Positions 4,587 to 24,454 of a DNA stretch of 28,770 nt are shown piece by piece (the first letter of the stretch is position 1; every line of letters begins with the position of its first letter). The notes under the pieces were generated by a model, which was not told the DNA's origin, made no database searches, and was given only the letters and a program-made list of their open reading frames with translations. The stretch comes from a virus: positions 1-28,770 of the IMG/VR virus record IMGVR_UViG_3300044701_001647. The stretch is one strand, 5' to 3'. Made by a program: the position numbers and the translations under genes.

Positions 4587-5326
4587 GCTATATTTATCTC
4601 CATGTGAGACGGGCTAGGCTGGACTACGGCAAAATCATAACCTTTAACTGCGTATGTAAATGATGCATCAGTTTTGATGCGAAGTTTACCAAACTTGGCA
4701 AGGCAATCCCAAGCATTTGCTCCGTATTCGTGTTTTTTTACAACAATACGCATAAGGTAATTTTCTGGAGTACGGAAAAAATAATGCTTTTCGGTTCTAG
4801 TGCGATCTTTGACGATTACACTATCTACAAACTCTACAACACCTTCATATTGTGGAAAATGAAAGGCATCTAGTTTAGGAGCACTGGTGTGCCCTTTCAT
4901 AACATTTTCTAATTCACGATTTTGTTTGAAAATGCGCGGCAGACTAACAAGAACTTTAACATGTTCCATGTCAATCTTTTTGCGATTTTCACAAAGATCA
5001 TCGACGGCTAGCATATATTCGCTAATGAAATCGTTTTTAAGACGGCGCAGGGTATGTTTCTTAGCGAAATAATCGTAAATCTCTGCGGCTAGTGCTTGAT
5101 GTTCTGAACTAATAACATTATCAGCCTTGATCTGTGGATGTTTTCCTACACCTACTAGTGTTTGGTATATCTCAGAACCATCCTTACCTGCTGCTTGCAT
5201 AGCAACTACTAGTGCAAGAGGAGGTGTGTTGAACTCCAAGTACTCTTTGGGCTTTTTTGCCTTAGAGTTATTCATAATATCTTCCCATTCGTCTGCAATA
5301 AAAATTGCTGCCGGTGATAATGTCAT
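4583..5326 (-). CDS. Phage hypothetical protein, 247 aa
   Basis: Start chosen at ATG 5324-5326 (MTLSPAAIFIADEWEDIM...), 4 bases after the stop of the upstream gene. An upstream extension would overlap that whole gene and has no ribosome-binding site. The N-terminal 90 residues are helical. The C-terminal 110 residues look strand-rich with basic surface (TRTEKHYFFRTPENYLMRIVV). No motif of a known enzyme is visible and there is no signal peptide. I think relatives occur in marine T4-like phages, but I cannot name a function. Confidence 0.7.
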   Translation of the reverse strand: MTLSPAAIFIADEWEDIMNNSKAKKPKEYLEFNTPPLALVVAMQAAGKDGSEIYQTLVGVGKHPQIKADNVISSEHQALAAEIYDYFAKKHTLRRLKNDFISEYMLAVDDLCENRKKIDMEHVKVLVSLPRIFKQNRELENVMKGHTSAPKLDAFHFPQYEGVVEFVDSVIVKDRTRTEKHYFFRTPENYLMRIVVKKHEYGANAWDCLAKFGKLRIKTDASFTYAVKGYDFAVVQPSPSHMEINIA

Positions 5327-5330
5327 TGAA

Positions 5331-6062
5331 TTAATCCCACAAATGTTGATAATATTTGCCGAAAAGTCTAAAACCGTTTTGCACACGCTCTGCATATGCT
5401 TTACGACCTTCCCAGTCGGTTTCGGCGGTGTGTTTAGGACCACGAACCATTTCGCTGGTGCCTTTTTCGTCGATCTTTTTGAAGCGAAAATCATATTCAC
5501 CAGTGGTAAACTGATCTTCCCAATCTTGGTTAACACCGCCGTCAAGGCTTTCAAACGCAAAGATCATTTCATCCATGACCCAATCCCAACGTTCAAAGAA
5601 AAGATTGTCAGTGGTTCCGTCTGTGCTGTAAGCTTCGATATCCTTTTCACTGGGACGTAGATGATCGGGCACATCCTCAAGATCTACTTGCGGAGCACCG
5701 TGCTTCTTCGCTCGCAATTGCTTGAGCATAGGACGCACAATGTAGCCCAGCGTGGTTTCCATGTTCCAAGTATCCCAGCGATCGATATGCACAGAAATTT
5801 TACGCTTTTTCTTCTTCTCAATCCAAAGCAAAAGCTTGTAGATCCAAGTGTTAGGACGATCGTCTCCCCAGTCGGTTTCATCTCCTACTTCGAGTTCAGG
5901 ACGGACACTGCCGTGAGCAATCCATTCACCAAACTTATGAACCCAGTCGGGCTTGCTTTTCATGCCATATTCGTCTTCAACATCTTTTACCCAAAAGCAA
6001 AGTGTTTGAGCCAACTGATAAGGACCAAACCAGTCTCTGTAGGGTCCAATACGTACACGCAT
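5331..6062 (-). CDS. Conserved T4-like phage hypothetical protein, 243 aa
   Basis: Recognisable as a family common in marine T4-like phages. It starts MRVRIGPYRDWFGPYQLA, has a conserved core around residues 90-118 (HIDRWDTWNMETTLGYIV then MLKQLRAKKHGAP), and ends with a WDWVMDEMIFAFE helix followed by an acidic stretch. Function is unknown in that family. Highly Trp/Asp-rich, soluble, no metal motif. It overlaps the upstream gene by 1 base (TAATG) and sits in the early operon from 7218 to 4184. Confidence 0.8.
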   Translation of the reverse strand: MRVRIGPYRDWFGPYQLAQTLCFWVKDVEDEYGMKSKPDWVHKFGEWIAHGSVRPELEVGDETDWGDDRPNTWIYKLLLWIEKKKKRKISVHIDRWDTWNMETTLGYIVRPMLKQLRAKKHGAPQVDLEDVPDHLRPSEKDIEAYSTDGTTDNLFFERWDWVMDEMIFAFESLDGGVNQDWEDQFTTGEYDFRFKKIDEKGTSEMVRGPKHTAETDWEGRKAYAERVQNGFRLFGKYYQHLWD

Positions 6063-6991: not shown

Positions 6992-7218
6992 TTATTCACC
7001 CAATTGCTAAATTCCATTGCAAAGTTTTGAGCAGCAATAATATTTTCAAAATAAAAGGTATGTTCGTATATCGCTGTCCACGTCTTAAAACTCCATTCGT
7101 GCCGCTCTAGATTCTTGCGGCACCAATCTTTACCTGCTACATCAAGATCACTGTGCAGTCTTACACTGTGTCCTGGCATCCATTTAAGTTTATGATCTGC
7201 TATTTCTTGTGGGGTCAT
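6988..7218 (-). CDS. Phage hypothetical protein, 76 aa, probably leaderless
   Basis: First gene of the 7218-4184 operon. It is a small soluble Trp-rich protein (RHEWSFKTWTAIYEHTFYF) with no recognised domain. The initiating ATG (7216-7218) lies only six bases past the promoter -10, and no ribosome-binding site precedes it. The message is therefore predicted to start at, or within one base of, the A of ATG. Confidence 0.7.
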   Translation of the reverse strand: MTPQEIADHKLKWMPGHSVRLHSDLDVAGKDWCRKNLERHEWSFKTWTAIYEHTFYFENIIAAQNFAMEFSNWVNK

Positions 7219-7224
7219 AATACG

Positions 7225-7253
7225 AATATAATAGAAGTGTTGAACATTGTCAA
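7225..7253 (-). promoter_or_regulatory. Early sigma70-type promoter, leaderless layout
   Basis: Minus-strand TTGACA (7248-7253), 17-base spacer, TATATT (7225-7230), then CGTATT and the ATG. Spacing places +1 at the start codon. It drives the long overlapping operon that ends with IF-1. Confidence 0.75.
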
Positions 7254-7255
7254 CC

Positions 7256-7263
7256 GATAAATA
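7256..7263 (+). promoter_or_regulatory. T4-type late promoter for the cysteine-rich small protein
   Basis: GATAAATA box matching the T4 late -10 consensus (TATAAATA), about 36 bases before the ATG at 7299. It lies next to the -35 of the opposite early promoter, so early and late transcription diverge here. Confidence 0.6.
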
Positions 7264-7298
7264 TTTATTACAAAGTCCAGTATACTAGGAGAGTTGTA

Positions 7299-7433
7299 AT
7301 GGAAAAATGTGTAAACTGCGGTCACGACTGTCATTGTGAGGAAGATACTTGCAAGGAATGCCACAATGATGTTTGTGCTAACTGCCAACACGAACCTGCA
7401 TTAGACGATATGCCTGCGGATACCCAAAGCTGA
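7299..7433 (+). CDS. Eight-cysteine mini-protein, 44 aa, likely zinc-binding
   Basis: ATG at 7299-7301 with AGGAG 6 bases upstream; stop TGA at 7431-7433. The product has eight cysteines in the first 29 residues: CVNC (4-7), C11, C13, CKEC (18-21) and CANC (26-29), plus histidines at 9, 12 and 22. This suggests one or two zinc knuckles or ribbons. The last 13 residues are acidic and flexible. It is a plus-strand gene between two minus-strand blocks and has its own late promoter. It could be a small adaptor that binds RNA polymerase or nucleic acid, but nothing beyond metal binding can be read. Confidence 0.7.
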   Translation: MEKCVNCGHDCHCEEDTCKECHNDVCANCQHEPALDDMPADTQS

Positions 7434-7443
7434 TTTCTAAGCT

Positions 7444-7460
7444 ATCAAGACTATCTTGAT
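7444..7460. terminator. Possible bidirectional hairpin between convergent genes
   Basis: Perfect 7-bp inverted repeat ATCAAGA/TCTTGAT with a 3-base loop, between the ends of the cysteine-rich gene (+) and the lipoprotein gene (-). It has no strong T-tract on either side, so termination is only likely by position. Confidence 0.35.
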
Positions 7461-7469
7461 TGCCCTCAT

Positions 7470-8204
7470 TTAAATATTTTGGAATACATTTCTCAAAATT
7501 CCCATTAAGCCTTGTTCTGAAGCTACCTGTGTATAATGATGTCTTCTTACTGCAAGTGCTCTTTTCGGATCATACAATTCAATACTTACACTATTTTTTT
7601 GGTTTCCGCCTAAGATTCGCCAATATTCTTTTCCGTCAATGTCTACAGTTTCAACATAAAACCCTACATGTCCTTGCCAACTGGCTCTTCCTCTCGGAAA
7701 TATAACTACATCACCCGGCATTGGATCTTTATTTTTATGATCTACTGGGTCACCCCACTCTAAAAAACTTCTAGCTAACAACGGATGTATTGAAACAGTA
7801 TCCGATCCAGGTATATCGTTTTCATTTAAAACACTATTGACAAACGCTGCACACCATTCTATTGTTCTAGGGTCGATATTCATAAATTCTTTTAATTCGT
7901 ATCGATTTTTACTTTCTGTAAACCCTAAATACATTTCTGCAATTAATATGTTTTGTGCGTTTATTTTTATTTGATCTTTTAACTGTCTAGAGGTATATGA
8001 TTGACTAATCGGTATAATTAAATCTTCTGGTCTTGATTTCGGTCGTTGATTAAAAAACAAATCATCAGGTCTTGCCGGTGGAGTTTCAGGTTCTGTAATC
8101 TCATATACTACTTCGCTAACTCCTTCTTCAAGAGACTGAGAAACCACTTGAAGATTAGCACACCCTGCTAAAAATAAAGAAAATGTTAAAAGTAGTAATT
8201 TCAT
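7470..8204 (-). CDS. Exported lipoprotein with CHAP-like (TIGR02594-type) amidase domain
   Basis: The 244-residue product starts with a signal peptide ending in the lipobox LAGC (Cys15), so it should be lipidated and anchored in the envelope. A proline-rich linker (about 35-65) follows. The C-terminal domain (about 85-230) matches cysteine peptidase/amidases of the CHAP/NlpC type: WCAAFVN with nucleophile Cys118, a PGDVVIFPRG turn, GHVGFY with His179, and LGGNQ (Asn201). Such enzymes cut peptidoglycan cross-links. As a host-anchored product it could remodel murein, aid lysis or exclude other phages; the role is inferred. A late promoter precedes it. The RBS AGAGGG leaves very little leader. 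Confidence 0.8.
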   Translation of the reverse strand: MKLLLLTFSLFLAGCANLQVVSQSLEEGVSEVVYEITEPETPPARPDDLFFNQRPKSRPEDLIIPISQSYTSRQLKDQIKINAQNILIAEMYLGFTESKNRYELKEFMNIDPRTIEWCAAFVNSVLNENDIPGSDTVSIHPLLARSFLEWGDPVDHKNKDPMPGDVVIFPRGRASWQGHVGFYVETVDIDGKEYWRILGGNQKNSVSIELYDPKRALAVRRHHYTQVASEQGLMGILRNVFQNI

Positions 8205-8261: not shown

Positions 8262-8540
8262 ATGGATTTTTTAACACTTGTTGGTGAAGTTGGGTTTCCC
8301 ATAGCCGGAGCATTAGCTGCGGGTGTGTTTGTGTTTATTACACTGAAGTTTATTCTTGCTAGTGTTACAGATTCAGTTCATACACTTAAAAATATTATGG
8401 GCGCACTAGACAATCGTGTGCAAACCATGAACAACGACCTAGTTAAAATAGATGCCTTGCTGAGTTATGTACTACATGTAAAGCCCAACGTTGAGCGTAT
8501 AGCTGCAAACGAAGGGAAGGATGATGCAAGGAGGGATTAA
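8262..8540 (+). CDS. Small membrane protein, 92 aa (holin-like layout)
   Basis: An N-terminal hydrophobic segment (about residues 11-33, FPIAGALAAGVFVFITLKFI) is followed by an amphipathic coiled-coil-like helix (TLKNIMGALDNRVQTMNNDL). The layout resembles small phage holin-like or virion-associated membrane proteins and is clearly related to the product of 9260 (GFPI... then LDNRV/LVDRV... NDL). AGAGGGCAA is the RBS and a T4-type late promoter precedes it. Function not proven; a lysis role would fit the lipoprotein amidase next door. Confidence 0.75.
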   Translation: MDFLTLVGEVGFPIAGALAAGVFVFITLKFILASVTDSVHTLKNIMGALDNRVQTMNNDLVKIDALLSYVLHVKPNVERIAANEGKDDARRD

Positions 8541-9023
8541 ATGTTAGATCCAATGTCTGCTATTGCCATGGCTACATCGGCATACGGTATGGTAACACGA
8601 ATGGTCGCTGCTGGGCGTGAATTTGAAGATACAGCTCAACAACTAGGAAAGTGGTTTGGTGCTGTATCAGACCTGCGTAGAGCAGAGCAGGAAAACAAAA
8701 ATCCTCCATTGTTTAAAAAACTATTTGCCAGTGGTTCGATTGAAGAAGAATCTCTAGCATTGCTGATGCATACAAAGAAAATTGCAGAGCAAGAAAAAGA
8801 ATTAAGAACGCTCCTTATGTATCGTTACGGTTCAAATGCATGGGAAGAGTTAATGACCATGAGACGACAAATTGCAAAACAGCGTCAAGACACAATCTAT
8901 AGACAGCAAGAACTAAGACAAAATCTTATTGATGGTATTATGATTTTGTCTTTTATAGTATTAGCCAGCGGTATGTTGATTGGTATGGTATATTGGGTAG
9001 GTGTTGTAAAATACTGGTGGTAA
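8541..9023 (+). CDS. Marine T4-like phage membrane-anchored protein, 160 aa
   Basis: Soluble helical N-terminal 125 residues contain GREFEDTAQQLGKWFGAVSD and a KKLFASGSIEEESLAL segment. One transmembrane helix follows near the C-terminus (about 132-155). I recognise the pattern from marine T4-like phages, where the function is unknown. AAGGAGGG lies 5-6 bases before the ATG and the start follows the previous stop directly. Probably one complex with the neighbouring small membrane proteins. Confidence 0.75.
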   Translation: MLDPMSAIAMATSAYGMVTRMVAAGREFEDTAQQLGKWFGAVSDLRRAEQENKNPPLFKKLFASGSIEEESLALLMHTKKIAEQEKELRTLLMYRYGSNAWEELMTMRRQIAKQRQDTIYRQQELRQNLIDGIMILSFIVLASGMLIGMVYWVGVVKYWW

Positions 9024-9259: not shown

Positions 9260-9643
9260 ATGGAATTTGATATAGCACAAGCAATCAGTGAATACGGCTT
9301 TCCGATAATAGCAGCCATGGGCATGGGATATTTTATCTTCTTCATATGGAAATGGGTGACAGAAACCATTGATCCTATACTAGGTGAAACACAGTTTACA
9401 CTAATCAAACTGGTAGATCGTGTACGCATGTTAGACAACGATCTTATTCGCCTTAATATGAAGTTAAGCATGGTTTTAGAATACAGAGGGCTACTAGAAC
9501 AATCAAACATACCTAAAAAAGATCTAGAAGAACTAGATGATATTATAAACAAGTATCAATCAAAAAGCGCAGTATTTAACAGTACAGGTAAAGCAGATGC
9601 GCCTAAACCTGCACCTAAACCTGCAGAACCAAAAAAAAACTAA
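9260..9643 (+). CDS. Membrane protein paralogous to the 8262 product, 127 aa, with -1 frameshift signal at its end
   Basis: One membrane segment at about residues 12-32 (GFPIIAAMGMGYFIFFIWKW), then a coiled-coil helix (LIKLVDRVRMLDNDLIRLNM). The tail ends in a Pro/Lys/Ala linker (APKPAPKPAEPKK). Similarity to the 92-residue product (GFPI, DRV, NDL spacing) shows duplication. The coding sequence ends in A9, containing the heptamer A AAA AAC followed at once by TAA. The -1 frame is open for another 47 codons ending in a second membrane segment, so a 174-residue fusion is possible. Confidence 0.75.
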   Translation: MEFDIAQAISEYGFPIIAAMGMGYFIFFIWKWVTETIDPILGETQFTLIKLVDRVRMLDNDLIRLNMKLSMVLEYRGLLEQSNIPKKDLEELDDIINKYQSKSAVFNSTGKADAPKPAPKPAEPKKN

Positions 9644-9783
9644 CTTTTGATCTACGAAAAATACCATTTCCTAGAATAGAAGTAGCATCCATGCAAACAG
9701 AATGGTTTCGTAGCCCGAAAAACATGGTCATAATATTCGCATTGTTTTTGTTAGTAAACGGACTAGTGTTAATTACTTTGTAG
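9640..9783 (+). CDS. Downstream -1-frame extension (47 codons) or separate 30-aa membrane peptide
   Basis: Read from 9640 in the -1 frame, this continues the preceding protein with LTFDLRKIPFPRIEVAS and then a hydrophobic helix (MVIIFALFLLVNGLVLITL), stopping at TAG 9781-9783. The internal ATG at 9691-9693 gives a 30-residue peptide but has no convincing ribosome-binding site, which favours translation as a fusion. The end overlaps the convergent GIY-YIG gene by 11 bases. It is either a true programmed frameshift or an A9 length error in the assembly. Confidence 0.55.
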   Translation, partial: LTFDLRKIPFPRIEVASMQTEWFRSPKNMVIIFALFLLVNGLVLITL

Positions 9784-10414
9784 TCGCTTTCTTAAGTTTA
9801 TAGGGACTAACTCCTGTTGCTCTACTAGCGGCATTTAGACTAGGATATTCTACACCTTCGTATGTTACTGCTTTACTAAACGATGCCATTTCTTCTGGTG
9901 TGCGTTTTCTTTGCACTCCGGTCTTGCCTGCGTTCCAAGTCTTTTTGCCAGCCCAGTAACGAGAATTGTTTTCACTATAACGCTGTCGTTGCTCACCGGT
10001 GCGTACTTTGCCTGTATTAGCAATTTTAGTTTTTTCGCCTATCATACGTTTTGTTTCTTCTGTATGTTTCTTACCGTAGAATCCATTCTTTTCGCCGTAT
10101 AAAAAGTTACCACTTGCTATGTGTGATTGGTATGCTGGACTCATTGATGTATCGCCGCCATCTCCTTGCTCAGGAACAATATTTGCCCACTCTTTAGATT
10201 CTACTACGTTGTATAGATTACTGTAATACAGAGCTTTTTCTTTAAACAACTCTTTATCGTCTGTTTCAAATAGTATTTCTGTAGTATGTTCTTCGCCGTG
10301 CTTGTTTAGATGACGTAACCAATGCGTGCCGGAACCTTTATACTTATAAGGGTCGCCGACAGTTTTTCCTAGATACCTTAATCCGGTTGCGTGTGTTTTA
10401 ATATACAGATACAT
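9773..10414 (-). mobile_element. Free-standing GIY-YIG homing endonuclease (Seg-like), 213 aa
   Basis: The N-terminus YLYIKTHATGLRYLGKT is the GIY-YIG motif region. FKEKALYYSNLYNVVESKEW and the NIVPEQGDGG segment follow, as in T4 Seg enzymes. Residues about 107-130 (GEKNGFYGKKHTEETKRMIG) are a NUMOD3 DNA-binding motif with a second partial copy. The C-terminus (SLNAASRATGVSPYKLKKA) is a NUMOD1-like helix-turn-helix. The enzyme cuts related phage genomes lacking the gene and spreads by repair. It sits exactly between convergent units and overlaps the neighbouring frame. Late promoter plus RBS hairpin lie upstream. Confidence 0.9.
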
Positions 10415-13113: not shown

Positions 13114-13121
13114 TATTTACC
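13114..13121 (-). promoter_or_regulatory. T4-type late promoter for the barrel-cyclase operon
   Basis: GGTAAATA on the minus strand, about 18 bases before the ATG at 13095, with GGAGGGCAA between. It lies right after the curli-operon terminator, so the two operons are transcriptionally separate. Confidence 0.6.
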
Positions 13122-13122
13122 T

Positions 13123-13147
13123 AAAAAAATAGAGCCCGAAGGCTCTA
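13123..13147 (-). terminator. Rho-independent terminator with UUCG loop, end of curli operon
   Basis: The minus strand reads TAGAGCC TTCG GGCTCTA followed by seven T: a 7-bp stem with a cUUCGg tetraloop, the stable loop common in T4 terminators. It lies 24 bases past the stop of the curlin/adhesin gene. Confidence 0.9.
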
Positions 13148-13170
13148 AGTTATAAAGATGGTAGTATGTT

Positions 13171-14835
13171 TTACTGTTGGTTAATAGTCATGTTACAAGT
13201 GCCACTAGTACATACACCAGTAACCACAGTGTTGTCACTTAGAGTGTTAGGTAAACTGTAAAGCTGACTTGTATCACCACTTTGTGTTAGATCAAAGTTC
13301 CAGTTACCGCCATTGTTTTCCAAGTTAACGATTGCTTGGTGATTGCCTGCACCTTCTTGTAAGATTGAGACTGTTGCGTTGTCGCCCAAGTTGGTCAAAT
13401 CCAAGTGATGTAGTCCTGTGCCTTGTTGTGTAATATTGTAAGTGCCATAGCTGCCGTCAATGTCAAGAAATGCTGTTTTGTTGCTTGCACCTTGCTGTAC
13501 AAATGTCATTGTATTGTTGCTGCCTGCAATGTTGATATCAGCAAAGTTTCTATCTGAGTTAGTACCACTTTGTGTAACATCAACAGAGTTTGAGCTACCG
13601 TTTAGATACAGCGATAGATAGTTGCCATTACTTAGCTGTTGAATATCCACATCATTCAAACTACCAATAATAGTCAAATCAATGCCGTTGCCTGCTGTAA
13701 CAGCAAATGCTGTTGCTACTGCTGCCTGTTGTACGCTGGTGATACTGGTTAATGGTACCTGTACCTGTGGTCCTGGGTTGCTAACACTACCTGAACCTGC
13801 ATCAGTGCTGGTTGTTGTATCGCCACTTTCCATCAAGAAGATAACTTCTGCTATTTGCACACTGTCGCACGCCAATATCTGATTCTGTGTGGTTGGATTA
13901 GCACAACTTGGATCTGTAGTTGATTTTAGTTCAGGAAATGTAATAAAGTAATAAACATATGCTGTAGTGTTTGTAATAGCCACAGGATTGATAGTAACAC
14001 CACGTCCGCTTGGCAGTGTTATAGGTTGATCCTGTGTGATCACAGTCCATGTAACACCGTCATTTGAACCATACAGTGTAAACTTAGTAGGATCACGCAG
14101 TTCAAAGTCGTTTGCTGTAGTAAACTGTAGTGCCTTAACCACACGTCCTGTGCTGAGTTTAACAGTAAAACCTGCTGTTTCTCTGTCAAAGTTTAGATAC
14201 TTAGAGGATCCGCTGCCATCTACTGCTTTTGCAGCTTCTTCGCCACTGGGTGTGTTTGTGCTTGTTGGGAACACTGTTGTGATAGTGCTGTTTAGACTGG
14301 TATATGTTGGACCAGCTGGTGCTGCACTTTGACCAGCTGCCAACGGTGTTGAACTGGCAAAAGTATAGTTCGCCAAGTCATTGCTATCAACGTTAGTATC
14401 CATACTTGTAAATGTATCACCTGCTCCAAAGGCATAGCCCTGTGAAGTTGGAATTACAGTGCCATAGCCGCCACTTCCCAAGTAAAATATAGCATCGTTG
14501 CCCAATGCAGTAATAGTACCGTATGAGTGTAGTTCTTGGTATAGTGTACCGTCGCTGTTATAAACAGCCAAACCGTAATCTCCCGGAGTAGTTATCGAAT
14601 TAAAAAATCCAAAGTATCTGCTGTTTGTGTCCATGTCTGTGTAAAACTGTGTGCTTAACTGTCCACTGTTGCTGAATACTCTAGTAAAGCTGCTGGCCAC
14701 TAGGTTGTTGCCGCTCCAATAGTATTGAACGTCAAACATCTGTCCTGTACCAAACTTACCGTCTGTGATAGCTGCATTTGCTACAGACGTAAATCCCAGT
14801 ACAAAAAGTGCCGCTGTTATTATTTTTTTTATCAT
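13171..14835 (-). CDS. Secreted adhesin with F5/8C-like domain and curlin-type repeats, 554 aa
   Basis: A signal peptide (MIKKIITAALFVLGFTSVANA) is followed by a unique N-terminal domain (about 22-175), then a discoidin (F5/8 type C)-like domain (about 200-335, with SKYLNFDRETAGFTVKLS and FTLYGSNDGVTWTVI). Residues about 380-530 hold at least six repeats of 22-24 residues in the curlin pattern (N-x-V-x-V/I-x-Q-x-G, for example SNSVDVTQSG and TYNITQQG). A cysteine pair closes the C-terminus. Likely a curli-like fibre subunit carrying a carbohydrate-binding head, exported through CsgG. Last gene of the csg operon; start overlaps the FecR gene by 4 bases. Confidence 0.8.
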   Translation of the reverse strand: MIKKIITAALFVLGFTSVANAAITDGKFGTGQMFDVQYYWSGNNLVASSFTRVFSNSGQLSTQFYTDMDTNSRYFGFFNSITTPGDYGLAVYNSDGTLYQELHSYGTITALGNDAIFYLGSGGYGTVIPTSQGYAFGAGDTFTSMDTNVDSNDLANYTFASSTPLAAGQSAAPAGPTYTSLNSTITTVFPTSTNTPSGEEAAKAVDGSGSSKYLNFDRETAGFTVKLSTGRVVKALQFTTANDFELRDPTKFTLYGSNDGVTWTVITQDQPITLPSGRGVTINPVAITNTTAYVYYFITFPELKSTTDPSCANPTTQNQILACDSVQIAEVIFLMESGDTTTSTDAGSGSVSNPGPQVQVPLTSITSVQQAAVATAFAVTAGNGIDLTIIGSLNDVDIQQLSNGNYLSLYLNGSSNSVDVTQSGTNSDRNFADINIAGSNNTMTFVQQGASNKTAFLDIDGSYGTYNITQQGTGLHHLDLTNLGDNATVSILQEGAGNHQAIVNLENNGGNWNFDLTQSGDTSQLYSLPNTLSDNTVVTGVCTSGTCNMTINQQ

Positions 14836-15923
14836 TGTTTTTGTACCACCTTTATATTAATGTCGCTCCCGCCATCCTGTATTTGAATGTCTGCAACATA
14901 GTCGTCTTGTGTTAAACTGTATGTTCCATGTGTGTCTGCTGTAGTTTTAAGTACAGCTATGTGAGGAGGTCTATCACTGTCTAACAGTATAAACTCCTCG
15001 TTAACTACCCAAGTTACCCATGGATAACGGTGTATATTGGGCAGTATTAGATTTTCTGGTTCGTCTAATGCATTTTCTAAGTCTAAGCCTAAATCTAAAA
15101 AGTTGTCTAAATATTTGTTGTTGAGCCTGTTAATGTCAAGTTCGCTAAACTTTAATAAATCTTCGTTAAGCAAGTTAGCTGATAGTTGCTCATATTCTAG
15201 TAGATCAACGTCTAGTGCTGTTCTGTATTCTTCTTCCTCTTCTTCCGCAGCAAATCCATTCGGAAATTCACTCGGAGGAACAATAATAAGATTGTTGTTA
15301 ATGTTTGTTCGTTCTAACAATAATCTTCTTGGATCACTGGGCATCATAGCACTGCTGCCTACCATAGTGCCTTCGTAGCGTTCGGTGAGCATAACTGAGC
15401 CTGCTTCGTTGCTGACCATAATACTGCCCACAGGACACTCATCTTCGTCTAGTGTTTCGTCAGGGCAACTGGGCAATAGAATAATAAGACTGCGACCAAA
15501 CTCGTCCACAGTCATACTGAAGTCTGTGCCTCGCACTGTGATACTGGCAGTAGGTGTGCTGATGTTGACATTTTCTCTACTGGTTTTGGCCATACGCCCA
15601 CTGGTCATCTGTACTGTTCCTAGTGCTACTCGCATGGTTGTTTTACCAACACCAGTGTTAGGGTCATACACAAACTCATCAATTACCAATTCACTTTGCT
15701 CTGTGATTTTAGCCTTTGATCCATCTTCAAAAGTAATGCCTAGATTGGTTTTGGCTGTGATAAGTTTATCCAGCATTTCTATATCAAAGCCTACTTCTTC
15801 AAACACTAGCTCATCCTTGCCGCGCTGGGCCGCGGCAGGATTACCGTCAAACTCTGTAATAGAGCCAACTTCTGCTGTAGCCATTGCGGGTATTAGTGCT
15901 AGTGCCAATATCAACTTCCTCAT
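14832..15923 (-). CDS. Exported FecR-domain protein with curlin-like C-terminus, 363 aa
   Basis: Start chosen at ATG 15921-15923, since this gives a clean signal peptide (MRKLILALALIPAMATA) and lies 1 base after the upstream stop. Residues about 50-145 form a FecR domain (ITFEDGSKAKITEQSELVI, then ISTPTASITVRGTDF). An acidic patch (residues about 225-235) and a helical spacer follow. The last 40 residues (TYSLTQDDYVADIQIQDGG then INIKVVQKQ) read as one to two curlin-like repeats. FecR proteins act in envelope signalling, often near CHASE2 cyclases. Here it may anchor or nucleate the fibres. Confidence 0.8.
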   Translation of the reverse strand: MRKLILALALIPAMATAEVGSITEFDGNPAAAQRGKDELVFEEVGFDIEMLDKLITAKTNLGITFEDGSKAKITEQSELVIDEFVYDPNTGVGKTTMRVALGTVQMTSGRMAKTSRENVNISTPTASITVRGTDFSMTVDEFGRSLIILLPSCPDETLDEDECPVGSIMVSNEAGSVMLTERYEGTMVGSSAMMPSDPRRLLLERTNINNNLIIVPPSEFPNGFAAEEEEEEYRTALDVDLLEYEQLSANLLNEDLLKFSELDINRLNNKYLDNFLDLGLDLENALDEPENLILPNIHRYPWVTWVVNEEFILLDSDRPPHIAVLKTTADTHGTYSLTQDDYVADIQIQDGGSDINIKVVQKQ

Positions 15924-15924
15924 G

Positions 15925-16761
15925 TTAGTTCTGTAGTATATCCACAGTGTTGGTATCACCTGTTACAGTCATATTAATATATGTGTAGCCCATCGGTGTT
16001 TGCTGATCTGCTGTGATAGTGTTGTTGCTTCCAGTTAATGTCATGTTATACTGGTTGTAACCTGCGGCAGATGTTTGTGTTAGGTCAGTAGCGTTTGAAC
16101 TGCCCACAATGTTCATCACCACTGTGTTGTTGCCACCTGTGGTGTTTTGTGTAACATTAGTAGTATTGGTATTGCCATCGATAGTCAATGCCACGTTGTC
16201 ATAACCGCCCATACTGAGTTGATTTAGATTTGTAATGTTAAAATCACTAGCAGTGGTTTGCCCTATGTCAACCGTGTTAATGCTGTCTGCACTGTCCAGT
16301 GCAAAGTTCAATTCATTGTTACTGCCTGTGATGTTAACAGTTGTATCTGTATTGTTAACAATAATACCATTGCATGTGCTGTTTACATATGTTCTACAGT
16401 AAGTCATAACGTTGTCACTGCCGACAATAGTGGTTACAAAACTGTTGTTGATACCGCCGTATATTTGACCTATAATAATATTATAGTCGCCTGTGGCACT
16501 GTAAACAAGATTGGTTTGACTTGCACCCATTTCTAATTCAAAATCTGCTTCGTTGCCGTCGCCGCTCTGTGTTAGGTCTACAGTGATGTCATCTCCGTCG
16601 ATGTCAAACGGATTTGATTCAGTGTTAACACGGTTCATGCCGCTCTCTTGTAAAACATCTACAGTGAGTGCGCCACCAGCTTGATTGATATAGACTTCAC
16701 TAGCCAGTGCTGGATTGATCAACGCAACCGACAATGCGGTTGTAATTAGAAGTTTCTTCAT
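15925..16761 (-). CDS. Curlin-like (CsgA/CsgB-type) repeat protein, 278 aa
   Basis: Signal peptide MKKLLITTALSVALINPALA, then a mature chain made almost entirely of Asn/Gln/Thr/Gly/Val-rich repeats of about 22-24 residues. The last four are the clearest (ALTIDGNTNTTNVTQ, VMNIVGSSNATDLTQ, NMTLTGSNNTITADQQ, NMTVTGDTNTVDILQ). The V/I-x-I-x-G-x-x-N-x-x-x-x-x-Q spacing is that of amyloid beta-solenoid curlins. Two cysteines near residues 121 and 129 (TYCRTYVNSTC) may form a disulfide. Probably the main fibre subunit. It follows csgG by 28 bases with a CGAGGGCAA ribosome-binding element. Confidence 0.85.
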   Translation of the reverse strand: MKKLLITTALSVALINPALASEVYINQAGGALTVDVLQESGMNRVNTESNPFDIDGDDITVDLTQSGDGNEADFELEMGASQTNLVYSATGDYNIIIGQIYGGINNSFVTTIVGSDNVMTYCRTYVNSTCNGIIVNNTDTTVNITGSNNELNFALDSADSINTVDIGQTTASDFNITNLNQLSMGGYDNVALTIDGNTNTTNVTQNTTGGNNTVVMNIVGSSNATDLTQTSAAGYNQYNMTLTGSNNTITADQQTPMGYTYINMTVTGDTNTVDILQN

Positions 16762-16789
16762 TTTTTGCCCTCGTTATTAAGCTTTATGC

Positions 16790-17569
16790 TTATTGGTCAG
16801 GAGCAAAGGACCAATAACCCCCCTCTGCTCCCTCTTTTATCATTTCAACTATTGCTGCTTCTATTGCTATTTTAACAGCATGATTTATTGGTTCGTTCTG
16901 ACTGCTGCCTAGTTCTAGCTCAACGTTTTCTGTTCCTGCCTCTATAAAACGGAATACTCCTAGATTAGTACTGGTACTAACCACAGTTTTACTTACTGCC
17001 GTGCTGGTAAGTATTTCGCCTGTCTGTACCGATACTGCCCTCATAGTAACGGTAATGACGTCTTCTGTGTATTGTGTGCTGGGTCCTACGCCCAAGTAAC
17101 GTGCGCCCGAACCACCTGTAAGTGTGTTTGAATCATAACCTACTATAGCACCTTCTATTATTATACCTGCAAACATCATAGGTGCTAGGGGAGTAGGATC
17201 GTTAACGCTGTCTCTAGTTTGACGTATTATCTGTCGTTCGCGACTTAGATTTTCTAATCCTACACGCTCTACAACTTTAAACCATGTACCTTTGCCTACG
17301 TCTCTCAATGCAGCAATAACATACTGTTCTGCGCCCTGTGTAACTGCTGTTGATATGTTGGCCAATCTGTCGCTGGGTTTACGTTGTCCAGTTTTGTCTT
17401 GAAACTCATATACCGCAGCAACCATAGGACCACTCAGTGGTGGTAATGTTTCTAAAAACTCTCTATCAGTTTGAACTACCTGTGGCGGTTCTGGTTCTAT
17501 TCTGTTGACTACAGTAGAACATCCAGCTAATGTCAGTGCCAATACAACGCCTAAAACAATAGTTTTCAT
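16790..17569 (-). CDS. csgG: CsgG: outer-membrane curli secretion channel lipoprotein
   Basis: Signal peptide with lipobox LAGC (Cys17). The 259-residue chain aligns along the CsgG family: VAAVYEFQDKTGQRKPSD, WFKVVERVGLENLSRERQII, MFAGIIIEGAIVGYDSN, GSGARYLGVGPSTQY, then SVQTGEILTS and GVFRFIEAG. CsgG forms the nonameric outer-membrane pore of type VIII secretion. The chain ends slightly before the C-terminal extension of the E. coli protein. It overlaps csgF by one base (TAATG). All core regions are intact, so it looks functional. Confidence 0.93.
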   Translation of the reverse strand: MKTIVLGVVLALTLAGCSTVVNRIEPEPPQVVQTDREFLETLPPLSGPMVAAVYEFQDKTGQRKPSDRLANISTAVTQGAEQYVIAALRDVGKGTWFKVVERVGLENLSRERQIIRQTRDSVNDPTPLAPMMFAGIIIEGAIVGYDSNTLTGGSGARYLGVGPSTQYTEDVITVTMRAVSVQTGEILTSTAVSKTVVSTSTNLGVFRFIEAGTENVELELGSSQNEPINHAVKIAIEAAIVEMIKEGAEGGYWSFAPDQ

Positions 17570-18024
17570 TAGAACGCAAACTCCCCTACTGGTACGTCAA
17601 AGCTTGATGTTAGATCGCCGTTAGAATCATAAACTTCTATGTAAATCCTGTCATCAACGTCACGCATCCAACGAATGTTGTCGCCAAATGGTGTAGTTGC
17701 TTCTGCCCACTCGCCTATTACAGTAGTGCCACCTTCTCCAAAAAGTGAATCTGCTATCTGTTTAGATAGCTGTGCGTAGATACGACTTTCTAGATTGTTT
17801 TGAAACTTATACGCATTGGTGTTTCTATAGTCACGCTCTGCCTTGTCTATAGCAGCTTGCGCATCTGCTGCAATTTTATCTTTACGTTGTTGTTCTAGTT
17901 GCTCAATGGTAAGCACGTGAGTACTCCATCCATTGCCGCTAAACGCAGGTGAATTAAAATTAAAAACCAAGTCTGCTTGCGCAGGTGTCGCTAGAAAACA
18001 CACAGCGAACAGTATTTTCTTCAT
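17569..18024 (-). CDS. csgF: CsgF: curli secretion/nucleation accessory protein
   Basis: 151 residues starting with a signal peptide (MKKILFAVCFLATPAQA). The mature N-terminus LVFNFNSPAFSGNGW matches the CsgF segment that inserts into the CsgG channel (FxFxNPxFGGNP). A helical middle (EQLEQQRKDKIAADAQAAID) and a beta-rich C-terminus (TTVIGEWAEATTPFGDNI) follow, as in CsgF. In curli systems CsgF couples the secretion pore to fibre nucleation at the surface. It is the first gene of the late csg operon. The leader has GGGGGCTCGAAATG, an unusual ribosome-binding sequence. Confidence 0.9.
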   Translation of the reverse strand: MKKILFAVCFLATPAQADLVFNFNSPAFSGNGWSTHVLTIEQLEQQRKDKIAADAQAAIDKAERDYRNTNAYKFQNNLESRIYAQLSKQIADSLFGEGGTTVIGEWAEATTPFGDNIRWMRDVDDRIYIEVYDSNGDLTSSFDVPVGEFAF

Positions 18025-18067
18025 TTCGAGCCCCCGAAAATAAGTTGAGCCTCACGCTCTACACTTA

Positions 18068-18075
18068 TATTTAGC
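18068..18075 (-). promoter_or_regulatory. T4-type late promoter of the curli operon
   Basis: Minus-strand GCTAAATA, about 43 bases before the csgF ATG. No -35 is visible. The leader contains short inverted repeats (GAGCGTGAGGCTC, and TTTCG/CGAAA around the ribosome-binding site). Confidence 0.65.
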
Positions 18076-21180: not shown

Positions 21181-21188
21181 TATTTATT
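21181..21188 (-). promoter_or_regulatory. T4-type late promoter of the 441-aa gene
   Basis: AATAAATA on the minus strand, overlapping the stop codon of the bilin reductase gene, about 22 bases before the ATG. It is part of the exact 35-bp repeat found again before the 523-residue gene. Confidence 0.65.
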
Positions 21189-21215
21189 CAATATCAGGGA
21201 ACAAACACTGCTGAA
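21181..21215. repeat. 35-bp exact direct repeat, copy 2
   Basis: Same 35 bases as 19693-19727. Here they encode the last ten or so residues of the bilin reductase plus the late promoter that overlaps its stop. The flanking bases differ at once on both sides. Confidence 0.9.
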
Positions 21216-21870
21216 CAAACAACTTTACATCTTCTTCGTTTAATCCTAGTGCTGTCATGGTTTTAGGAGTATGAGGATTTTGTTTTTGGTAATATGCGTA
21301 TCTATTCTGTGCTGCTTTAACTTCATCTGCATCAGCTTCATAGTTATAGATACCAATAGTGTCTAGATAATCATCTATGCTGGAAAAACTTAGATCAACA
21401 ATCTGCTCAAGTTCTTCACCACTGTTTACATTGCCCGCAGCTACCATATGTTCAGTAAAAATAGCCTGTGCCCACTCAGGTAAAGCTCTGGCCTTGCGCC
21501 ATTCGAGTCTAGCAACTTCATCACCAAATGCTTCGATCATTGGATGTTTAGATTCCACAGTTGGTGAATAATCATGAAAAAAGCCTGTGATCTTGTTTTT
21601 GCCAGCAATAACGTCCAGCCCAAAAATAGGACCATTGTTGTGAAGCTGTGGAAAGATGCAACAGTGCATCATCCACAATCCTTTTGATTCTCTAGCATCT
21701 ACTACATCGACGTGAGCTCGTCTGTAGGTGTCACTAGTCCATACTCTGTTGACCCAACCTGGTTGATTGAATCTGTCCATACCAAACTCGTTGTATTCTT
21801 GACCAGTAGCATCAAACCGTTCGATCAAACGGTCTTGTATTTTTATCAGTGTTTCCCAAACTGCGCTCAT
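21184..21870 (-). CDS. pcyX: Ferredoxin-dependent bilin reductase (PcyX/PebS-like)
   Basis: 228 residues, the length of phage FDBRs. The core RRAHVDVVDARESKGLWMMH, FPQLHNNGPIFGLDVIAG and ITGFFHDYSP matches the family; Asp100 in HDYSP is the likely catalytic acid. FDBRs reduce biliverdin to phycobilins using ferredoxin. The heme oxygenase that makes biliverdin is directly upstream with a 4-base overlap. The ho-pcyX pair is known to me from uncultured marine viruses thought to infect alphaproteobacteria, where the product is phycoerythrobilin. Symbol chosen on that context; PebS or PcyA-like is possible. Confidence 0.8.
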   Translation of the reverse strand: MSAVWETLIKIQDRLIERFDATGQEYNEFGMDRFNQPGWVNRVWTSDTYRRAHVDVVDARESKGLWMMHCCIFPQLHNNGPIFGLDVIAGKNKITGFFHDYSPTVESKHPMIEAFGDEVARLEWRKARALPEWAQAIFTEHMVAAGNVNSGEELEQIVDLSFSSIDDYLDTIGIYNYEADADEVKAAQNRYAYYQKQNPHTPKTMTALGLNEEDVKLFVQQCLFPDIE

Positions 21871-22796: not shown

Positions 22797-23249
22797 TTAG
22801 CCGTCGATTAGTTTGCTGTCTGCGGTGCTAATAGCAATTTTCTTTGGTTGAAGTGCTTCAGGAACGTTACGCTTTAAGTGAATGTTTAGCATACCTAATT
22901 CCAGTGTTGCGTTCTCAACCTCAATATGATCGGCCAGTGTAAAACTTCTACGGAAACTGCGACCGCCGATTCCTTTATGTAGATAGTTTACTGTCTCGTC
23001 TCCCTTAGGAGCAGTGCCTTCTACTGCGAGGATATTTTTGTCTAGAGTAATGTCTAGATTATCCATACCAAAGCCAGCAACAGCGATACTAATCATGTAT
23101 TCGTCGTCGTTGATTTGTGCGATATTGTATGGAGGATATCCGTTAGACTTTGAGTTTTCAAACATACGATCCATTTCACGGAACATTTGATCAAAGCCTA
23201 TAGTAGCACGATGAATTGAGGGTAAGTCTAGAGTTTGTAATCTTGTCAT
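22797..23249 (-). CDS. hsp20: Hsp20/alpha-crystallin small heat-shock protein, 150 aa
   Basis: Start at ATG 23247-23249 (MTRLQTLD...), 9 bases past AGGAG; an out-of-frame ATG lies 5 bases earlier. IbpA-like features: GFDQMFREMDRMFE, NGYPPYNIAQINDDEYMI, an alpha-crystallin domain (about 37-130) ending in LGMLNIHLKR, then a C-terminal extension with an IAI-type anchoring motif (KKIAIST). It should hold unfolded proteins, and phage sHSPs are frequent in marine T4-like phages. It has its own late promoter and a leader of about 50 bases. Confidence 0.9.
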   Translation of the reverse strand: MTRLQTLDLPSIHRATIGFDQMFREMDRMFENSKSNGYPPYNIAQINDDEYMISIAVAGFGMDNLDITLDKNILAVEGTAPKGDETVNYLHKGIGGRSFRRSFTLADHIEVENATLELGMLNIHLKRNVPEALQPKKIAISTADSKLIDG

Positions 23250-23303
23250 TTCATTTCTCCTTATTAAGCAAGATTTGAGTGGACCCATTGTGGCGTCCAA
23301 GTT

Positions 23304-23317: not shown

Positions 23318-24454
23318 TTATTTGCCTATTGTTGTTTTTTCGTACACACTGTTATGTGTTTGTGTGCAACGAACAAAGGTAGTACACTTTGATAAGTGCT
23401 TGAGCTGACTTGCTCCAGCATAGGTACAGGTGCTTCTAACGCCTCCGAGTATTTCTTGTACTGTATCAGCTACAGATCCTCTGTAAGGTACTAGAACCGT
23501 CCTGCCTTCTGACGAACGATAATTTTTAAGTCCGCCAAAATGTTTGTCATTTGCACTTTTGCTACTCATACCGTAGAACTGAACAAACTTTTTTGTTTCA
23601 ATAACTTCATCACCATTATCGTAGTGAATCTCGCCGGTTTTAAAGGCTCTGTTAATCACATCGCCACCGCCTTCGTCGTGTCCAGCCAGCATACCGCCCA
23701 GCATCACAAAGTCAGCACCAGCAGCAAATGCTTTAGCTACATCCCCAGGAGTAGTGCAGCCACCGTCAGCAATAATATGACCACCCAGACCATGGGCAGC
23801 ATCCGCACACTCGATGACTGCTGAGAGTTGAGGATATCCAACACCAGTCTGAATCCTAGTAGTACATACACTACCAGGGCCAATCCCAACTTTAACAATA
23901 TCAGCTCCTGCAAGAATAAGTTCCTCCGTCATTTCGCCAGTTACAACATTACCAGCAATGATTACTAGATGCGGGAAGCGTTTGCGTACTTCTCGTACAT
24001 GTTCAGCAAAGTGTTCACTATACCCATTGGCAATATCTATACACACATACTTTAAGTTGTCTTCGCATTTTTCGTATACAGCGCACAGCTTCTCAAAATC
24101 TGCTGCGCCTGTGCCAATACTCATAGCTACAAAATCAGTACGGTACAATCCGTCGCCATAGAAAAAATCAATTAGTTCTTCGGCAGTATAGGTTTTAACT
24201 AGGCAAGTAAAGATGCCTTGTTTGCTAAGAGCATCTGCCATAGCAAACGTACCAACACCATCCATATTAGCAGCCATAACTGGAATGCCTGTGTAGTGAG
24301 GGTCATCAGTGCAATTATTAGGAAAGTCTGGCGTGTAGTTTCGAAATGTAAACTTACGTTCTAAATCAACTTCACTGCGACTTTTGAGAGTACTGCGCTT
24401 TGGACGTATAAGCACATCCTTGTAATCTAATTTCACATCTTGATCGATGCGCAT
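23318..24454 (-). CDS. guaC: GMP reductase
   Basis: 378 residues beginning [20 protein letters not shown] and very close to bacterial Gua[46 protein letters not shown], and GPGSVCTTR with catalytic Cys197, then [21 protein letters not shown] and GMSS. It lacks the CBS insert of IMP dehydrogenase. The reaction is GMP + NADPH to IMP + ammonia. This could rebalance purines toward adenine nucleotides for A+T-rich phage DNA, or supply IMP. An insertion around 280-295 relative to E. coli ([18 protein letters not shown]) is unusual for GuaC. Spaced 9 bases after S21 with AAGAGG. Confidence 0.92.

Follow-up and report, generated by a model that had tools for sequence, protein, structure and literature searches.

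Curli genes in phages

Genes of the curli, or type VIII, secretion system (T8SS) have been reported several times in phages. Zaragoza-Solas et al. (2020) found csgF and csgG in marine phages and proposed "sibling capture" as their role (PMC7029224), the same idea as the gathering of new hosts suggested in a sequence-only reading of the DNA studied here. Wittmers et al. (2022) described CsgF, CsgG, CsgA/B, FecR, an adenylate cyclase and an 'HK' (histidine kinase) in pelagiphages, with a wide ocean distribution and transcripts; phage curli genes were reported from each of the 65 ocean stations of GOV2.0, and FecR was read as an iron-dependent regulator (PMC9599517). With the work of Buchholz et al. 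(2022) on phage Melnitz (PMC9004378) there are three earlier accounts, so that the phage curli system itself is not new. We have analysed such a system in the IMG/VR virus record IMGVR_UViG_3300044701_001647. What we call the window is the whole linear entry, with a length of 28.8 kb; it is probably a fragment of a genome.

The origin in a phage, already assumed from the sequence, is supported by the source of the record and by the gene for the T4 portal, which is present in the nearest long relative (G393, 218 kb) and in 7 others of the 15 searched; the contigs that carry it have 161–364 kb. A megablast search of the region against phage records gave no match. In IMG/VR we have found 31 relatives by CsgG search and at least 592 by FecR search. 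The CsgG tree places the window within a viral clade which is uncultured and lies apart from the cultured phages HTVC008M and Melnitz. The hosts of these nearest cultured relatives are Methylophilales and Pelagibacter, and the tree separates the window from both.

The late curli unit

Five intact open reading frames (ORFs) follow each other on the minus strand: csgF, csgG, a CsgA-like curlin-repeat protein, an exported FecR protein and a second curlin with an F5/8C domain (Table 1). As the sequence-only reading had it, they are bracketed by a T4-type late-promoter motif and a terminator with a UUCG loop. Directly after this terminator another promoter core starts a second unit, which goes beyond what had been noticed before; it codes for an outer-membrane-like protein, a protein of 84 amino acids and a CHASE2-domain adenylate cyclase. 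We propose that these genes form a late phage curli module, in which FecR would be an adaptor that reports the secretion or assembly of curlin to the cyclase, with cyclic AMP (cAMP) as the signal. We give this proposal an even chance of being right.

The exact T4 late octamer TATAAATA was not found, but its core TAAATA is present. On the coding (minus) strand 11 of its 16 sites are intergenic, although such DNA makes up 4.3% of the sequence (p 3e-12); for hexamers with the same letters in permuted order the count is 0–7. Among 78 relatives, 51 have the core ahead of csgF as well, and its background frequency in random stretches is 5.4%. From this enrichment and the conserved placement we infer, on good grounds and at the level of motifs, that the curli unit is expressed late, as had been suggested.

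The set of genes is conserved. CsgG and CsgF accompany all 45 independent FecR loci with enough flanking sequence, and a CHASE2 gene accompanies 43 of them, in three cases on the opposite strand. A pair of small membrane proteins is found in 45 of 51 curli loci of at least 13 kb. The operon had been called complete: its five genes are all present, but the module also holds the cyclase and this small membrane pair. We have found the module in T4-type contigs of 217–364 kb.

The FecR protein and its tail

The FecR protein (start taken at 15932; the longest ORF begins at 15959) has a signal peptide and a FecR beta domain in residues 21–210, which AlphaFold2 predicts well; a flexible linker leads from it to a second beta domain at the C-terminus, in residues 306–366, which ends in two curlin-like strands. 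The mature protein starts directly with the first beta domain, which is that of FecR-type regulators and shares its fold with the cell-surface-signalling domain of PupR (Z 15.2, root-mean-square deviation 2.6, 135 residues). We claim no fold for the C-terminal domain, because the structural comparison barely tests that part.

A C-terminus with two strand-Q motifs is found in 65 of the 81 phage FecR proteins and in 60 of 128 curlin ORFs, compared with 14 of 816 other ORFs, none of 74 cyclases and 3.4% of shuffled sequences. The pattern allows for the strand spacing of curlins and was the same for all controls; an earlier and stricter pattern matched 19 of 80. Gln364 is invariant in the 66 aligned members. 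Among 19 complete bacterial FecR proteins linked to CHASE2 outside curli loci, none has the two-strand tail.

In the published reading of the T8SS of pelagiphages (Wittmers et al., 2022) FecR is an iron-dependent regulator and, together with the histidine kinase and the adenylate cyclase, controls the transcription of curli. The gene set is the same in those phages and the fold of FecR is PupR-like, as this reading would have it. However, the phage protein has a signal peptide and no N-terminal anti-sigma domain: PF04773 is the sole family matched across all 66 members. Nor did any neighbour scanned with Pfam match an extracytoplasmic function (ECF) sigma factor, in a scan which covered part of the window ORFs, and the late-promoter motifs already account for transcription. 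Judged by its domains the phage FecR looks like neither an iron nor a sigma regulator, and we consider the published reading improbable.

The pairing of FecR with CHASE2

The cyclase has the CHASE2 and catalytic domains of a class III adenylate cyclase and is matched by CyaB of Pseudomonas aeruginosa (1e-19). It contains the metal-binding Asp 427 and 473, Lys 469, an Asp in the motif YDVLGD and Arg 554. Among related phages there are two subtypes of cyclase domain, VSTAAR with Asp and VNLASR with Thr, which look as if they had been swapped beneath a conserved CHASE2 part. Each of 11 phage records, the window and ten long relatives, has one CHASE2 gene.

The pairing extends to bacteria. When 84,980 species genomes were searched with a profile of the phage FecR, 12 loci were matched, and a CHASE2 gene stands next to FecR in 11 of these; neighbours of this kind without curli are found in Sulfurovum, Ferrovaceae and Hydrogenophilus, among others. 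In each of the 7 matched genomes which were checked the CHASE2 gene is single. The class of Hyphomonas, with 115 genomes, has 40 of its 112 CHASE2 genes within 6 kb of a FecR gene, against 1.2 expected, and FecR is present in 46 of the 51 genomes with CHASE2 and in 8 of the 64 without it (p 6e-18). Both genes are missing from five canonical curli loci of Alphaproteobacteria. The full order csgF, csgG, curlin, FecR and CHASE2 is found in three bacterial loci, two in Caulobacteraceae and one in Hyphomonas, which may have its origin in a prophage. Contrary to a published statement, some curli operons of bacteria thus include such genes. A precedent for the pairing itself is the Burkholderia biofilm operon, where a FecR protein is found with a CHASE2 kinase (PMC5192318). 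From the counts with and without curli, the simplest account would be that the FecR domain works with CHASE2 and the tail with curli.

It is also conceivable that FecR is only part of the fibre, a minor subunit which anchors or nucleates it like CsgB, with the FecR domain as a plug for periplasmic retention, while the cyclase acts independently on the metabolism of the host. The curlin-like tail would suit this role; residues 19–115 match the surface-anchoring domain of an adhesin (5ix9, Z 8.7), and the cyclase has its own promoter motif beyond a terminator boundary. Such independence does not agree with the pairing of FecR and CHASE2 in bacteria free of curli, nor with the 43 of 45 phage loci which keep the cyclase next to FecR, even when it is inverted. 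We find this alternative unlikely.

The small membrane pair

Two small proteins with one transmembrane segment, which we call STM1 and STM2, are found on the strand opposite to the curli unit, past the cyclase and a homing endonuclease. They are paired in 157 of 159 STM loci and share the conserved motif DRxRMLDNDLIRL. By their position, size and pairing they are probably the 'histidine kinase' of Wittmers et al. (2022). In four members scanned, of about 95 amino acids, there is no Pfam match to HisKA or HATPase up to E 1, which is a further point against a kinase that controls curli transcription. The STM pair also helped to classify one contig, L035, deposited as part of a metagenome-assembled genome of 'Flavobacteriaceae': we have set it aside as probable phage, because it has the pair and groups with HTVC008M.

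A gene for a CHAP-domain lysin adjoins the STM pair in the window and in close relatives, so that the curli module may adjoin lysis genes. One may then ask if the whole set is a lysis device, in which CsgG, CsgF and the small membrane proteins would act like pinholins or secretins and the curlins would be by-products; we adapt here a proposal of Buchholz et al. (2022). The late-promoter motif, the neighbouring lysin, one weak holin match (0.0055) and the gene context in Melnitz are in its favour. Against it, two scans anchored on STM found module genes at every one of the 68 STM loci that are flanked on each side by 3 kb or more, so that in these loci the STM proteins occurred with the module only. 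Furthermore the curlin, FecR and cyclase genes stay together across very divergent phages, and both the pore segment of CsgF and the glutamines of the curlin repeats are conserved. A lysis device appears to us quite unlikely. We have not adopted a holin identity for the STM pair either, because it depends on that single weak match and the pair is not found outside the module.

The secretion pore

The E. coli CsgG structures (3x2r/6l7a) align with the window CsgG over its full length (2.4e-49), and the Pfam score of CsgF is above the cut-off. The N-terminal FNFNSPAFSGNG segment of CsgF is widely conserved among relatives, which speaks against the idea that phage CsgF may have left the pore. A search of PDB sequences with CsgF gave a designed protein as its sole match, which we judged spurious. 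The constriction loop of CsgG is different: SDRLANIS stands in place of YPASNFS in E. coli, so that Y51 is replaced by Ser and F56 by Ile, while N55 is kept. In other phage groups the Phe is kept and the Asn is changed. The secretion parts had been considered intact, which largely agrees with CsgG from end to end and with the CsgF segment, but the constriction residues of E. coli are kept only in part.

CsgE had been noted as absent, and we found no match to it in 11 records, the window and its ten long relatives of 161–364 kb (E. coli, which did respond, was the control). It is also missing from published phage and alphaproteobacterial T8SS (PMC9599517), so that its lack does not remove the window from the wider T8SS.

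Curlin subunits

The CsgA-like protein, the candidate for the major fibre subunit, has 8 strand-Q motifs against a mean of 1.8 in shuffled sequences, and the position of its gene is conserved among relatives. The second curlin is composed of an N-terminal beta domain, an F5/8C (CBM32-like) lectin-type domain in residues 175–341 and a curlin beta-solenoid in residues 384–518. A Pfam check confirms CsgF, CsgG and FecR; F5/8C is just below its curated cut-off and Curlin_rpt is weak in both curlins (0.0044 in the second one). The matches of the second curlin to the models of CsgB (8e-7) and CsgA (1.6e-5) are also below cut-off. Homologues give a much stronger signal: 36 of 39 match Curlin_rpt, the best at 5e-12. 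The glutamines Q400, Q422, Q447, Q470, Q493 and Q518, with a spacing of 22–25 residues, are invariant or nearly so.

In the AlphaFold2 (AF2) model of the second curlin there is a CBM32-like head, which compares with structures of F5/8C domains at Z of about 13–17, and a paired-strand solenoid over the curlin region. The heads vary: in the 39 homologues we find F5/8C in 11, PA14 in 2 and GLEYA in 1. All three are kinds of domain able to bind sugars. The likely role of the second curlin is that of a lectin borne by the fibre.

Proposed mechanism

The observations which lead to our proposal are the gene content and order, the late-promoter motif, their conservation, the tail of FecR and the FecR-CHASE2 pairing across bacteria. 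From them we infer the formation of fibres, the contacts of FecR with CHASE2 and curlin, the production of cAMP and a benefit for the phage. Late in infection a T4-type phage of marine or freshwater origin would switch on the curli module. Sec would export the subunits, and CsgG with CsgF would form the outer-membrane pore. The CsgA-like protein would build the fibre, to which the second curlin would add a sugar-binding head. FecR, the exported adaptor, would join the pore or the fibre through its C-terminal curlin-like strands; its FecR domain would meet the periplasmic CHASE2 domain, and the cyclase would convert this contact to cAMP inside the cell. The benefit might be surface remodelling, aggregation, masking of receptors before lysis or control of host stress, and our observations favour none of these over the others.

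Several points weigh against this proposal. Neighbouring FecR and CHASE2 genes do not prove that the proteins bind, the window cyclase sits in its own unit behind a terminator, and a CHASE2 gene was undetected in 2 of 45 relatives. The subclade of the cyclase has Ser for the usual transition-state Asn (VSTAAR compared with VNLAAR), so that its activity is putative. Neither Pfam nor local profile searches score the FecR tail as Curlin_rpt; its likeness is therefore claimed at the level of motif and strand spacing only, with homology unproven. Finally, Buchholz et al. (2022) saw no clumping in infections by phage Melnitz and proposed lysis roles (PMC9004378).

In place of the labels 'iron regulator' and 'histidine kinase' there would be a FecR linked to the fibre, a cyclase with CHASE2 and two small membrane proteins, and binding, cAMP and fibre assembly become testable. 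If the coupling is true, CHASE2, for which PMC5192318 calls the signals unknown, would have a ligand. In a wider and more tentative view, to which we give somewhat less than an even chance, FecR-CHASE2 could be a general periplasmic sensor of bacteria with an interchangeable FecR tail, fitted to whichever surface structure is monitored, by which T4-type and jumbo phages would gauge their own fibre export as cAMP in a dying host.

The FecR and adhesin components had been thought less explored. FecR, together with the cyclase, is named in PMC9599517. In the open-access literature we found no published account of its curlin-like tail, of the swappable sugar-binding heads of the second curlin, of FecR-CHASE2 pairing used to explain this operon or of the jumbo-phage range of the module.

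Other genes in the window

The remaining features are included in Table 1. The bilin reductase is found in a phage without sign of a cyanobacterial host. The protein of 607 amino acids has several curlin-like strand-Q motifs.

Table 1. Features of the curli module and other genes in the window
Feature	Position	Strand	Evidence
Late-promoter core TAAATA upstream of csgF	18068..18073	-	Intergenic enrichment; presence in relatives
csgF, 151 amino acids, signal peptide	17569..18024	-	Pfam CsgF 3.3e-12; phrog_35372 3.4e-42
csgG, outer-membrane pore lipoprotein, 259 amino acids	16790..17569	-	Pfam CsgG 5.5e-52
CsgA-like curlin-repeat protein, 278 amino acids	15925..16761	-	Curlin_rpt 0.0078 (weak)
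Exported FecR-domain protein	14832..15932	-	Pfam FecR 5.1e-9; AF2 pLDDT 85; PupR fold
Second curlin with head, 554 amino acids	13171..14835	-	Pfam F5/8C 3.3e-6; NCBIfam CsgB 8e-7; AF2 model
Intrinsic terminator, UUCG loop, T7 tail	13130..13147	-	TAGAGCC-UUCG-GGCTCTA-type stem-loop
Second late-promoter core TAAATA, directly 3' of terminator	13114..13119	-	TAAATA scan
Small outer-membrane-like protein, 116 amino acids	12745..13095	-	phrog_3600 'PagP' 7.8e-6; in 28 related loci
Protein of 84 amino acids	12494..12748	-	ORF; no family match (Pfam, PHROG)
CHASE2-domain receptor adenylate cyclase, 679 amino acids	10458..12497	-	CHASE2 2.1e-36; cyclase 4.9e-17
Homing endonuclease, own TAAATA	9773..10414	-	phrog_314 1.3e-20; between cyclase and STM pair
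STM2, one transmembrane segment, phrog_18771 family	9260..9643	+	70% identity to protein upstream of csgF in relative L007
Protein of 160 amino acids, C-terminal membrane span	8541..9023	+	phrog_32327; between STM1 and STM2; elsewhere near module in other phages
STM1, one transmembrane segment, probable paralogue and partner of STM2	8262..8540	+	Sequence; paired in relatives
CHAP-domain lysin	7470..8204	-	2.4e-6; phrog baseplate hub/tail lysozyme 2.1e-19
Bilin reductase related to phycocyanobilin:ferredoxin oxidoreductase	21184..21870	-	4.4e-21
Hsp20 gene	22797..23300		Adjoins GMP reductase
GMP reductase	23318..24454	-	2.5e-160, above cut-off
Protein of 607 amino acids	25092..26915	-	Weak tetraspanin-like N-terminus 7e-5; peptidoglycan-binding 8e-4

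Comparison with known systems

The closest described system is the T8SS of pelagiphage HTVC008M (NC_020484). It has the same order of csgF, csgG, curlin, FecR, second curlin and adenylate cyclase, it also lacks CsgE, and its CsgG has about 51% identity to that of the window. The window differs by the outer-membrane-like and 84-amino-acid genes between adhesin and cyclase, by the terminator with a second late-promoter motif, by the small transmembrane pair on the opposite strand and by a CsgG clade apart from the cultured branch. The head of the second curlin is F5/8C in the window and, by inspection, PA14-like in HTVC008M. Methylophage Melnitz (MZ577097) shares the gene order, including FecR and a cyclase which is 50% identical, but its second curlin has no obvious lectin-type head. 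Its csgA and csgB are said to be lacking (PMC9004378), whereas two proteins with curlin repeats (7010–8026 and 5232–5951) are annotated in its database record.

More distant systems share only parts of the module. E. coli csgBAC-csgDEFG has homologues of CsgG and CsgF and curlin repeats; compared with it the window adds FecR, the CHASE2 cyclase and a lectin-headed curlin, has a changed pore constriction, and CsgE was not found. The BiofilmReg operon of Burkholderia (PMC5192318) also has an exported FecR-domain protein beside a CHASE2 receptor and affects biofilm, but there the FecR protein has LysM where the phage protein has its curlin-like tail, the receptor is of the histidine kinase type, and there are no curli genes. 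The PupR/FecR anti-sigma factors (6ovk) have the same FecR beta-domain fold; the phage FecR differs from them in having no anti-sigma match, no apparent membrane anchor in its mature part, and a curlin-like tail.

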